Shown in pieces: positions 1-64,000 of a stretch of 64,000 bases of DNA. Under the pieces are notes generated by a model. That model saw only the letters and a list, made by a program, of their open reading frames with translations. It ran no database searches and was not told where the DNA came from. Within the stretch, counting starts at the first letter, position 1. Each line of letters starts with the position of its first letter. The position numbers were made by a program, and so were the translations under genes. The DNA is from Urechis unicinctus (lineage: Eukaryota; Annelida; Polychaeta; Xenopneusta; Urechidae), in contig CM067353.1 of the NCBI GenBank assembly GCA_034190875.2, forward strand, positions 32,181,199 through 32,245,198. Direction: 5' to 3'.

Positions 1-318
1 GTTCAAGTCACATTAGCATTCACCACAGCTTCTGACGACAAACTAGGTGGTATTTGCAAGAAGAAACGCAAGGGTTTGGTATTGTGGGTATGCCTAAAAC
101 AACCTAATATCAGCGGGAGCTGGGACGTGACAGTAAATAATTGCCTCCAGATGCAAGTGGTTCATGTCACATTAGCATTCGCCACAGCTACTGACGACAT
201 ACTAGGTAATATTTACAAGAAGGAACGAAAGGGTTTGGTATTGTGGATATGCTGATAACAACCTGATATCAGCGGGAGCAGGGGCGTGACACTTAAATAT
301 TTGCCTCATGATGCAAGT
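1..318. repeat. 159-bp tandem repeat, two units
   Basis: Two adjacent units (1-159 and 160-318) share the same order of motifs: a start like GTTCAAGTCACATTAGCATT, then CACAGCT, GACGACA, ACTAGG, AGGGTTTGGTATTGTGG, ATCAGCGGGAGC and a TTGCCTC-ATGCAAGT end. They differ at scattered single bases, so the duplication is not recent. One unit in inverted orientation is present at about 27,030-27,200, and a shortened one near 43,650-43,740. No coding potential is seen. Confidence 0.9.
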
Positions 319-3300
319 AATAGTATCTTGATGGCTTAGGATGTGATCGTTTGGTACGAAAATAATTTAAGACATGTCTCTTTATTGTGTAATTTGAAAT
401 GACAAGTAAAGCTTTCTTTGTTGCAGTCAATATGGCAATATCTTTGAAGAAACCTCAACCCAGCCATCCTACTAGTCATCCAGCACGATTATTTAGACCA
501 CCGTCATATAACCCTACTCTTCCGGCTTTTGGCAAGGTATGGGAGATAAGGGACGAATCAACTGATTCAGGTATTGATCAATTTGGCGCGTTGACACAGG
601 ACATGGGCTGTACATGAACCACGTTCGGGACCTGCTAGAACCACGGAAAAAAATGTATATATTTCAATCACTACCGCAGCGCAGCACAATGCATTGTATT
701 CTTGCATTATGACTGTGAGAACCGATTACATGAACCAACAGCTGTCACTGAACGCCTTTTATAGACGTCTGATGTTATTGCTTGCTTGTGTTGCAGAAAC
801 CCACTATGTAGGATATTTCCTTCGCATTAATTTGTTCATTATTCATGCAAGCAATGGAAAATAGTATATTTTGTTTTGGTTAGAGAATATTTACCATTAC
901 TCATCAAAGGAACTAATTATTACTCCAATAGGGTCTTTTGGTGACATTCAGAACCTGATACAACCACAGCGAAAACATGCAGGTATTCTTATCATTTCCG
1001 CAGCAATAAATGTTCTATATTACTTCATATGTGAAATATGATGGGGTATTAATATGCTTTTTTCATTCGGCGCATTTAACGCCCAACGACTTGCTTTGGG
1101 TTGCTCTGATGTTATAAGAATGATATCGATCTAACAGATATCTAGCTGCCCGGATAACGCAAGGCCGTCGCGATGTCCACATATGAGGTTACTAATAACG
1201 ACATCTTAACAATCTCAACCTACTTCTATATCAGTCATTATAAAAACTGTGAATAATGCAGGTTAAATGTCAGCCAATGACATCAAGCACCAGACCTGTT
1301 TTGTTTAATCCTCCTAATACAATTAACACCTATGTTGTCGTCACGTGTGTGTGATAGCTTGATATATCAAATACACATTAGAGTTTCAACGTCAATTACG
1401 ACAGTAGGCATTGCACCCAGGCAATGACGACAGGGATGATTGTTAGAACAAGACCCTTGACACCAGTTGGCCACCTTGCTAGTCCAACAAACTGTGCGTA
1501 AGTACTCGTTGAGATTGTGAAAAACCGGCTGTATAGGGTACTCGTAGCTCACAGTGAAACTGTACCCAGACCATCATTTAATGTGATATCCTGACAGCTC
1601 AAGCCAGCAACTTCTACAGTCACATCATTTATAAACTGATGGGAATCGATCCATTTATTTACGGTGACAGACCTACTAGAGCTGCAAAGGCATTGCACCG
1701 ACTTGGGGCAATACAGCCAGGCTTAATCGTTAATATGGACATCCGGTATACGTAATGGCAGACACCCAATGCAGACAGCTTTCCGAACGTTATCTTAACA
1801 ATGGCCACTTAGCATTGACCTGATTGTTGCATTAGGGCGAGCGCCGTCATCAGATCGTCTTATATTACCAGAGCCAATTTCACGAGGGGTCACGTGGTGG
1901 TATGCTTTCGTGATGTGTGCAAGTAAATATAGTCAAACATTTTTATTATCTCTACAAATGAGCCATGCAAATTTGCTCTTGGTGTACCTTGTACATTTTT
2001 AAACCATACAAAGGATTTGCTAACAACAGTTGTGACTTTTTGTGCAGCTAACCAGTTCTATAAATATACAAATCACCGATCAGCTAAACCCCTGGCCAAA
2101 CGTTGATAGCGAATTGTAGGAAGTCCTTGTCGATAAAGTCATACTAACTGATTCGATTTCAAAACTTCTAGATCTTTTGAATGACGGTCGTATAAGAAAT
2201 GTCACACGATTCCACTCCCAGACCGCCAATTGTGAAGCATAGCTAATGTTATCTAATTGCCTGTCACATGATAATTCGGATAGGCTTTGCGGGTTTTCCA
2301 TAAATTGTAAATTATTTCCGAAAATGTTTACTGCATTGGTAAAGACTGTATATATGAATAGTGATTAATATGCTGCCATAGACGATGCTACATGTATTCA
2401 TCACTTTTGGGAGTGGTTTTGGATTGTGACAGCGGACTGGTAACCTGCCCCCGCTGTTATCAGCCAAGACCACTCCCAATTGTGGGATGAAATTAAGACA
2501 AAGGGATATATTTATCTTTACACGTAGCACTTGGTCATCTTTGACTTGGCATGTTAAGAGAGGTATGTTTTCTACTTGAATGAGCTACTCCTGAGAATGT
2601 TAAACACCAACCACTACGGCATTTTGTAACATAAAGTGTTGATCCCCTATGCTTAGCTTCACACTGAGCACATTCGTTGCCAATATTGAGTAGCCTTTTT
2701 TGGAAATACGTAGCTATATCTAATGTGCAGATGTTTCGCGTTGATGTTAAATGTGCATTCATGCTGTAACTGCGTTACTCAAGTAACAATGCGCATATAA
2801 AATGTCATATATTTGATTACACATGCTTCTTCATGTAAATACATCGCCTCTTTTCCTGTCTTTTCGGCATGTTACCCAATGATGATAAAAGTAGGAATGG
2901 ATCATGTCGGAATCGGTCACTGGCATTCAGAATTATATATAATATATTGATCTCAGGTCCTGTGGGTGATGCAGATAGTCAAAGCGTGACGTGGATATGT
3001 TGCAACAGTTGAATGGTTCACAGCATGTCTGCCATGTAGTCGACCCGCATGTGAACTGCCAATTAGCACCAATAACCTTCTAAGATTGCTACCTGTTTGA
3101 CCTATTTCTGTATTGTGCATAAAGATCGTGGTCCTTGACTTTTGGCTCATATTACATTGGCATTCACTGTCGTTACCAACGTCACACTAGCCGGTAATAG
3201 CCTAGCCAAATGATAGAGTTCATATAAGCATCTTCGACCAAACAGAAGCACGAAGTTAGGTAATTGTCTCTAGTCGCGTTTGACAAACAATAATGTTTGT

Positions 3301-61760: not shown

Positions 61761-63460
61761 ACGCAATCTTCTTTTGGATTGGTATGGAACGTTCGTTTGA
61801 TTATCCTGTGAATTCCGTTTGCCTTGGTAGTTTACTTGCTTTAAGGCACAGAGCACGCAGATACAATACAGATGCATTTGTGGATTTTTTTTACATCCGT
61901 TGGTTTCATTCATTGCCTACACATATCAGCATGATAACCACTTTGTCTCTAGCTCTAGGAATATAAAACGATTTAATGACTGCCTTTTCATTTATCTAAC
62001 AATGAAGTCAAGGCTATCTGGATATTGCGAAGATGACTCTGGGAACAACAAATGCAGCTGAATCATTTAATTACCCACATTGCACAACCAGGCTCGTTAA
62101 TCAGTATCCTGGCTGCACAACCTGACAGTTAATCATGACTGTATTTGCCATTCGGTCAACCCAATTCATTTGCATCTCTGTTAGGTTTGGCATCCTAAGT
62201 AAATGGAACGGTTTCCAACTGCTTAACAAATGAATTGAGAGCAGCAGTCTAAAGCTGCCACAATCGCACATGCGAGTGCGACATCGAATCGTTGACATCA
62301 TTTTACTTAGAAAAACATCAAGACGTGGGTCGATTTTTGGTTATTGACAATATAACCATGTCATTTGGCTGTCTGCTTACCTCAATTTCTCCATTTGCAA
62401 TGAACAACCCTTATCAAGAAGCATAGAGCCATTATTCTATATCTAGTTCAATCGTTTGTCAGTCTCATATTGCCTCCCGATCCAGCTGTGATTGTCGTTG
62501 AACCAAGATCATTCGTAGCACCTGTTTATGCATAAGCTGGTATAGTTTCCAATGTTTTGTTGGCGTTCTGGTATACGCCGATTACATCAACTGGTGTCAT
62601 ATCAGTCGTCCACGTTCGAATTTCCTAAGAGAACGTTGATTAGAAACGAGCAACAAGCTCGGTATAGGCCTTGTTGTGATAAATCCATTGGCTCATGTTT
62701 ATGAATTCCTTCAATCGGCCCTGACCGATCATGGCCCGAAATAAATATTTTAGTGACAGAAAGACTGAAAAAAATTTGTTAAGGTTAAGATCAGATCAAT
62801 ATATTCACTTTACTTACGCCAGTCACAGTGTATGCGAACACCAAATTATCCATTCACAAATGTCAGCTATAGGCCGCTTTATTCGAGTCGACTAAGTCTT
62901 ATACGAAAGCGAGACATTATTTTCTGTATTAACACTAGTTGAGAATGAGTTGCTAATCATCAAGAGCTCTACTGAACATTTCCTTTATTGTATGTCTGTA
63001 GCTTTGATCTGGTATGACTGCAGAATACGATAATAAGGAACCCCATTATTCATATTGCAAATATACACAGGTAGACACGTTTGATGAGGCGCGCCTACCT
63101 GTTCACAAAACATGGGCTGTATTAATAAATAAACCCAGTCATTCGCGTTACAGAGGTATTTAATGCCAATCCTATTTAAAAGCCGATGGACATGCAACTT
63201 GCATGAAAGTGTGTGCCTTTTAAAGCACATACTGCCAATGGTAAAATTGATCAGTGGCTTTCTTGCCGTCGTTATTCGTAAATCACTCAAGAATGGTATA
63301 TTGATCACTAGGGGGTTCGTTATCTATCCAATTGAACCATGATTATCTGAAATCTATAATGGCATCCAAAAATTGGGGTGTGTGACCTCATTGTCAATGA
63401 TTCACGATTTGAGTGAAATCGCATTATGAAATAATCAATGTGGAAATAACAATAGCGGGT
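61761..63460 (+). repeat. Array block j and k, fourth copies
   Basis: 61,780-62,010 follows 32,610-32,790 and 53,930-54,120. 62,120-62,420 follows 39.5 and 54.3 kb. 62,420-62,930 follows j. 62,960-63,310 follows 33,690-33,940. 63,390-63,460 follows 55,130-55,200. Confidence 0.78.
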
Positions 63461-64000
63461 TTGGCCTTAGTTTAATATGTATTCTCTACACTAGTCTATG
63501 CGATGTAAAGTGCCGGATGCTAAGATATCAAATGGGCTTACAATATCATAGAACATAATGTGATTACAGAACTAATTTTGTGAACATTGTGTTCTGTCTG
63601 TCTGTCTGTCTGTCTGTCTGTCTGTCTGTCTGTCTGTCTGTCTGTCTGTCTCTCTCTCTCTCTCTCTCTCTCTCTCTCTCTCTCTCTCTCTCTCTCTTTC
63701 TCTCTCTCTATCTCTCTTTACCTGTCTCTTTCTATGTCTATCTCTTTATTGTCCATTAATGACGGGCAACTGGAGGCAATGTGCAAGCGTCAAATATGAA
63801 CTTTGCTCTTTCCAAAACGGTGTTCGGTCATTTCTCGATTTTCAGCACGATCAGTTGCAGTGTAGTTTTACGTTCATTGCAGCAGTGAATGTCAACACAA
63901 CGTTGGCCATGCATGTTAAATAAAAGACAGGTATGGTTGAATAAATAGGTAGAAGACTGCGATTATATAGTTAGTGGATTCTCACAGGCCAGATAGATAT
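63461..64000 (+). repeat. End of window: partner of 55.19-55.46 kb plus unanchored tail
   Basis: The left part repeats 55,205-55,300. 63,770-64,000 has no recognised feature. The array probably continues beyond the window, because no boundary is visible. Confidence 0.6.
63593..63696 (+). repeat. (TCTG)14(TC)24 compound microsatellite
   Basis: 63,593-63,648 is fourteen TCTG units and 63,649-63,696 is twenty-four TC units. A degenerate CT tract continues to about 63,745. The homologous site at 55,325-55,365 is a short, irregular CT stretch. Confidence 0.97.

Follow-up and report, generated by a model that had tools for sequence, protein, structure and literature searches.

A satellite-like stretch of the Urechis unicinctus genome is probably part of a local duplication cluster around a YIPF5-like gene

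Introduction

What kind of process leaves a stretch of chromosome in which diverged blocks recur in order and in both orientations? We addressed this question for 64,000 nucleotides of the annelid Urechis unicinctus (hereafter “the window”, meaning this whole stretch; C12:32,181,199-32,245,198, forward strand), which a preliminary description had taken for a mosaic macrosatellite. Our results indicate that the window is very probably part of a local segmental-duplication cluster, produced by tandem and inverted copying and then subject to divergence, deletion and pseudogenisation. The sole cellular gene recognised in the copies is YIPF5-like (Golgi traffic; Pfam Yip1). The assembly comprises 926 contigs and 1.19 Gb in total; since C12 is 90.8 Mb long, the window at 32.2 Mb is internal to its contig and not close to either end.

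Ordered copies in both orientations

Aligned to itself with BLAST (E<1e-5, dust on, non-self matches counted), the window yielded 120 high-scoring segment pairs (HSPs), 103 direct and 17 inverted, against none in any of five sequences drawn from its own dinucleotide transitions; a stricter alignment (E<1e-10) gave 71. These were not microsatellites and isolated short matches only, nor scattered, but collinear chains: direct ones join 25.6-34.2 with 41.2-49.4 kb, 36.8-39.8 with 51.0-54.5 kb and 53.9-55.3 with 61.8-63.5 kb, and an inverted one joins 1-4.6 with 15.1-27.2 kb. The ordered, diverged multi-block copies in two orientations that had been described by eye were thus recovered by alignment. 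Eighteen stretches of >500 bp had no match inside the window, 12 of them between 3.4 and 25.6 kb.

The further claim that nearly every kilobase is copied failed for the window alone, where HSPs covered 61.2% of bases, and held once its surroundings were included. In a 324-kb sequence made of the window and 260 kb around it (R, in which R 100,001 is window position 1), 89.6% of the window was duplicated, 79.2% directly and 66.0% in reverse (E<1e-15). At the same threshold, R aligned to itself in 906 direct and 578 inverted HSPs, an inverted share of 578/1,484. The copies are old and uneven in divergence: length-weighted identity of the 220 HSPs starting in the window was 66.9, 71.0, 78.1, 82.8 and 90.7% at the 5th, 25th, 50th, 75th and 95th percentiles. 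Between copies in the window the transition/transversion ratio was only 0.88, and sites with a CpG in either copy differed in 58% of cases against ~48% expected at 17.5% per-site divergence, a mild excess that would suit CpG methylation.

Genome-wide distribution of the copies

We then asked where else these blocks occur, using a search that scored only the best candidates and skipped very common words, so that all match counts are lower bounds. A 401-bp probe across blocks g and h had at least 17 matches and a 1.2-kb probe (window 32.6-33.8 kb) at least 29; all 17 and all 29 lay on C12:32.16-32.42 Mb (full range 32.160 to 32.422 Mb). Two exon probes from the YIPF5-like gene behaved alike, with at least 14 (exon b) and at least 10 (exon c) places, 14/14 and 10/10 of them on C12:31.83-32.86 Mb. 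Within these lower bounds the duplication is a local cluster, not dispersed DNA, and the many additional genome-wide copies anticipated in the preliminary description did not appear: every reported match of the four probes fell on C12 within ~1 Mb. That all block-probe matches are on C12 argues against a satellite or a genome-wide transposon, either of which should appear on other contigs too. One 2.6-kb block had no match in a phage collection.

The content of the window bears on the same point. We listed 394 stop-free open reading frames (ORFs) of ≥52 amino acids, dropped 10 of simple repeat and scanned 384 with Pfam, obtaining 27 families at E≤0.05 where ~19 were expected by chance (best E 0.0026). 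Both that best match and one RVT_3 match (E 0.003) were at chance level, in agreement with the earlier remark that no transposase or reverse transcriptase was to be seen; the same remark mentioned no LTR pair, for which no dedicated search was made. That the units are copies of a large transposable element (a non-autonomous giant DNA transposon, a Helitron or a Polinton relic) is therefore extremely improbable: Polinton-like and LINE-like ORFs do occur elsewhere in the 324 kb, but no element domain rises above chance in the window, the two block probes match nowhere off C12 within the lower bounds given, and a super-unit carries a multi-exon cellular gene.

The YIPF5-like gene and its broken copies

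The lead to this gene was a 64-residue frame (window 5,077-5,268, minus strand) returned at chance strength (p 0.004, 4,833 tests) by a codon-position test over the 324 kb. The same frame, which we take to be part of YIPF5, had the eighth lowest ratio of non-synonymous to synonymous change (pN/pS) of 1,207 ORFs (0.29, six hits). A tblastn search with a human YIPF5 sequence found consecutive exons at window 4,814-5,522 (minus strand) and in other super-units; the R 194 kb copy shared 61% identity with that sequence in exon b and 67% in exon c. When spliced, exons a-c of a copy 192 kb beyond the window (locus L035, ~C12:32,437,429-32,438,170) matched positions 4-173 of the Yip1 profile (PF04893) with E 4.8e-13, scoring 49.8 bits where the curated cut-off is 28.6. 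Individual window exons stayed below that cut-off (E 0.027) and were thus missed by the first Pfam scan. The YIPF5-like pieces in the window are as follows:

4814..4976, minus strand: YIPF5-like pseudogene, last exon (c); open to the stop, acceptor AG lost
5078..5259, minus strand: exon b of the same pseudogene; open and with both splice sites, 94.5% identity to L035, partial sub-threshold Yip1 match (E 0.027)
5412..5522, minus strand: exon a of the same pseudogene; interrupted by one in-frame stop, splice sites preserved
10822..10953, minus strand: YIPF5-like exon b fragment with a stop and a deletion
23968..24171, minus strand: YIPF5-like exon b fragment with a stop

The copies thus differ in their state of decay. 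In L035, exons a, b and c are open with GT/AG at every junction. The main window copy is intact in neither frame nor splice sites, given the stop in exon a and the missing acceptor of exon c. The R 194 kb copy is without exon a and retains open exons b and c with their splice sites, the R 287 kb copy is without exon a, has a stop in b and is three bases short in c, and the R 20 kb copy is truncated. Since the gene copies retain introns and splice sites, copying took place at the DNA level and not via mRNA. The host-gene fragments that had been suspected in the window are thus supported, as pieces of this intron-containing gene.

A Yip1 profile search of the genome returned one exon only, under the cut-off and on C9 (L038, C9:32,872,880-32,873,220; E 0.0068), which we take to resemble YIPF1/2. 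This search also missed the known C12 exons and so cannot exclude another YIPF5 copy; the exon probes are the better evidence. A PDB search gave nothing useful. A 44-bp minisatellite at window 6978-7094 is also found 5' of the YIPF5-like exons in L035.

Nested units and super-units

Duplication in this region is nested, with ~5-kb units inside ~20-kb units inside ~70-90-kb super-units, one of which is inverted. The following units lie in the window:

1..4615, minus strand: inverted unit copy (reverse match to 15,138-27,203), with which a longer inverted super-unit that extends left of the window ends on its right side
7611..14414, plus strand: strongly diverged, deleted unit copy, with pieces matching 16.3-24.1, 42.6-43.1 and 30.0-30.8 kb in order
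15000..34700, plus strand: most complete unit of the window, ~19.7 kb, used as reference
35059..39763, plus strand: short unit copy, its block h grouping with R 78.1, 85.5, 152.9, 223.4 and 309.9
41230..49417, plus strand: unit copy collinear with 25.6-34.2 kb, 78.9% identity over 6.5 kb aligned
51042..55291, plus strand: short unit copy collinear with 36.8-39.8 kb
58923..63549, plus strand: short unit copy, its block h grouping with R 233.7 and 317.3

Extended copies of the reference unit lie at R 90.2-104.6 (minus strand), 201.2-220.1 (plus) and 294.3-307.2 kb (plus), with shorter copies of its last ~5.4 kb between them; R 2.8-18.6 kb has weaker pieces in direct orientation. Both R 105-185 kb and the later super-units have an inverted relative in R 46-104 kb, so that a large imperfect inverted repeat turns round within the window.

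Outside the window, 86 kb beyond it, C12:32,331,371-32,340,809 (R 250,173-259,611) carries a young head-to-tail array of seven 1.35-kb units that are 99.6-99.96% identical. The array is small and macrosatellite-like, and has inverted relatives at R 61-63 kb.

Could the window itself be a true macrosatellite, i.e., a large tandem array kept by unequal exchange, perhaps pericentromeric? Its units are of kilobase size, repeated many times and specific to one place, and the 1.35-kb array lies nearby. However, the window units vary irregularly in length and content, occur in both orientations and are 67-91% identical, and short arrays are all that Tandem Repeats Finder (periods ≤500 bp) detects there. 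We consider a macrosatellite very improbable, and the term used in the preliminary description does not fit.

The closest super-units raise a different concern. R 180-239 and 278-324 kb share 94.2% identity over 36.8 kb aligned (17 HSPs, >400 columns, >88%), reaching 97% across long tracts. Such values are within the range of allelic divergence in very heterozygous animals, and part of the duplication might then be an assembly artefact in the form of unmerged haplotypes. This seems very improbable: most copies are far more diverged, the offset between these two super-units drifts from 98 to 84 kb, Polinton-like ORFs lie between them, and the stretch contains no N.

The order of events can be approached through block h, which was reported six times in the window at irregular spacing. 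The spacings were reproduced (16.4, 8.1, 8.9, 5.6 and 6.0 kb between starts):

13956..14414, plus strand: block h, copy 1 of 6
30353..30895, plus strand: block h, copy 2 of 6
38440..38952, plus strand: block h, copy 3 of 6
47365..48015, plus strand: block h, copy 4 of 6
52952..53514, plus strand: block h, copy 5 of 6
58923..59555, plus strand: block h, copy 6 of 6

In a tree of 15 block-h copies from R, sequences grouped by their place within the super-unit and not by neighbourhood (groups, in R kb: 113.9/198.6/291.8; 158.9/233.7/317.3; 152.9/223.4/309.9; 138.4/78.1/85.5; 95.5/130.3/147.3), with support of ≥0.93 in 10 of 12 splits and 0.49 and 0.14 in the remaining two. Because block h groups by super-unit position, we infer that small units multiplied first and that super-units were copied later. 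Along some pairs identity jumps, e.g., 94.7% over 38,161-38,482 beside 84.7% and 78.6%; such abrupt changes suit gene conversion and suggest it without proving it. Of the history first proposed for these blocks (segmental duplication, deletion and conversion), the duplication and deletion parts are borne out by copies that are local, collinear, deleted and mosaic, and conversion is only suggested.

Element G and candidate unrecognised genes

The most widespread anchor of the cluster is element G (block g), with 26 copies in the 324 kb and L035-L037, eight of them in the window:

7740..7905, plus strand: element G, without a TTC tail
13,401-13,558; 16,412-16,573; 30,013-30,171; 38,097-38,272; 47,073-47,230; 52,671-52,784, plus strand: further copies of element G
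55,447-55,572, minus strand: element G
13524..13764, plus strand: 241-bp (TTC)n run where g meets h; no other form of the “TTC seed” noted earlier is as long

Matches to it span 51-185 bp and, with 40-base flanks, have a G+C content of 0.42-0.51 against 0.41 for the region. In L035, L036 and L037, element G lies on the 5' side of the YIPF5-like exons, and it is still present beside relics 0.3-0.4 Mb from the window. It may serve this gene as promoter or first exon. We rejected it as a coding exon, as no reading frame is open across its copies.

Signs of coding constraint were also sought beyond the YIPF5-like exons. The codon-position test gave no third-position bias beyond chance for copies in the window (369 tests, best p 0.0014) and, over the 324 kb, a strong signal for Polinton-like ORFs outside it. 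Among the 12 lowest pN/pS values of the 1,207 ORFs (0.19-0.31), four belonged to Polinton-like frames, one was the YIPF5-like frame, and seven had no family assignment (two or three hits each). A 52-codon frame with a Met start, possibly an unrecognised exon, is open in three copies outside the window, at R 66,557-66,712 (minus strand), 169,509-169,664 (plus) and 241,459-241,614 (plus); its copies are 85-92% identical to the first at the protein level, with pN/pS of 0.25-0.37. Two of these copies, like window 18,724-18,906, are among the seven unassigned frames; Pfam gave no match above chance for any of the three copies or for window 18,724-18,906.

It could thus be argued that the cluster consists of working genes that have escaped recognition, be they for fast-evolving peptides or for long non-coding RNAs that start at element G, and that the YIPF5-like pieces are passengers. 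Element G, with its 26 copies and its persistence beside relics, would fit, as would the seven unassigned low-pN/pS frames, including the one that stays open for 52 codons without a stop in three places. We nonetheless regard it as unlikely, given that no frame of element G is open across copies, that third positions in the window copies show no bias beyond chance, and that the low-pN/pS frames draw on two or three hits each, against six for the YIPF5-like frame. Quite improbable, too, is a narrower version in which the G-h part is an amplified functional element, i.e., a locus with a promoter, for a non-coding RNA or a small peptide, that arose next to the YIPF5-like gene and multiplied ~26 times, its order kept while the gene copies decayed. 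If so, the G-h element could supply small RNAs, or be an amplicon that is sex-linked or acts through dosage.

A history of local duplication

We return to local segmental duplication, which starts from what is directly observed: the locality of the probe matches, the nesting, the two orientations, the kept introns, the lesions in the gene and the grouping of block h by super-unit position. One neighbourhood with a YIPF5-like gene would have been copied again and again, in tandem and inverted, giving units of several kilobases and the ~70-90-kb super-units that contain them. Ectopic (unequal) recombination between neighbouring copies may have driven the process, small units probably multiplying before super-units, and conversion may have blurred some tracts. 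The YIPF5-like gene would be the functional core, one copy being kept in working order and the rest decaying by birth and death. On this view L035 would be the living YIPF5 gene. In three of four copies, exons b and c share 94.5-97.5% identity with L035, against 87-89% for intron 2 (101 columns), which suggests constraint on exons after copying.

Several points weigh against this account. The contrast between exons and introns comes from short stretches and is not uniform: between the window copy and L035, exon a (91.9%) hardly differs from intron 1 (90.8%) and the 5' flank is at 95.4%, and in the R 20 kb copy exon c (84.7%) is below intron 2 (91.1%), with no exon advantage. Constraint after copying is therefore suggested and not proven. 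Neither L035 nor the 324 kb yielded the 5' exons of the gene, so that “intact” applies only to the last three exons of L035. The outlying relics L036 and L037 are decayed. Low pN/pS also occurs in other frames, the 52-codon frame included, and another functional core is thus possible. Finally, scoring of best candidates only leaves room for copies elsewhere in the genome.

Relation to known systems

Macrosatellite arrays such as RS447, D4Z4, DXZ4, TAF11-Like and SST1 are described as head-to-tail, homogeneous and variable in copy number, with 97-100% identity within arrays (PMC3018141). The window shares with them kilobase units, a restriction to one or two places and the possibility of holding genes, and some macrosatellites have inverted edge monomers; unlike them, its units are irregular, diverged and of mixed orientation, such homogeneity being seen only in the separate 1.35-kb array. 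Segmental duplications are usually defined by ≥90% identity, which is reached between R 180-239 and 278-324 kb (94.2%) and not by most pairs in the window. In their other trait the region agrees with them: its copies of chromosomal DNA are of kilobase size, do not stem from a transposon and occur at few places. Pseudogenes stand beside an apparently intact copy, a feature that we take to be typical of birth-and-death gene clusters. In being local, nested and mosaic, with both orientations and intron-bearing gene pieces, the region also resembles segmental duplications and such gene clusters. One published example of these clusters is PMC7419210.

YIPF5 belongs with yeast Yip1p, a protein whose orthologues are reported in all eukaryotes (partial sets in diplomonads and foraminiferans), and most mammals and teleostome fish have two paralogues, YIPF5 and YIPF7 (PMC6682643). 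With orthologues so general, it would be ordinary birth and death if one copy were retained and most of those around it decayed. Like YIPF5/YIPF7, the last three exons of L035 give a full Yip1 domain match; unlike those pairs, the gene is represented here by a single 3' part that appears intact and by numerous broken ones, those found being confined to ~1 Mb of C12. No such YIPF5 duplication cluster turned up in a literature search by titles and abstract openings.

Taken together, the cluster looks like a further example of a known phenomenon, ordinary local duplication and decay, and not like satellite DNA: what has the look of a satellite in a single window proves, when the genome is searched, to be local duplication. 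It offers a readable record of a neighbourhood growing into a nested cluster in a large eukaryotic genome, with relics over ~1 Mb, in which small units, super-units, an inverted super-unit and the decay of copies of a conserved trafficking gene beside one with an intact 3' part can all be followed.

Other coding and repeat content

A gene cluster with recognisable domains was considered and rejected, no cellular family being repeated along the cluster among the 384 window ORFs and 218 flank ORFs. The latter were the scanned part of 245 listed ORFs of ≥84 amino acids, leaving out low-complexity ones and all of L009, L012, L013 and L029; in the flanks, E≤0.01 was reached by reverse transcriptase, in one member per scan over two scans, and by weak single matches, of which PHD_4 (3.7e-5) was the strongest. 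In the window, Rfam gave nothing at gathering score or E≤1, and ARAGORN found no tRNA genes.

Two diverged sets of ORFs outside the window, at C12:32.345-32.357 Mb (L029-L030) and 32.109-32.126 Mb (L011-L013), are presumably Polinton/adintovirus-like, with polymerase-, integrase-, capsid-, packaging ATPase- and protease-like members. LINE-like ORFs were seen at L022:2656-3968, L031:6055-7193 and L032:5264-7937 (Pfam reverse transcriptase in one member per scan, the rest by eye). Minor repeats in the window comprise an exactly repeated 45-bp pair at 19221-19314, a (CAG)n run at 5805-5871 and a (TC)n run at 63593-63745.

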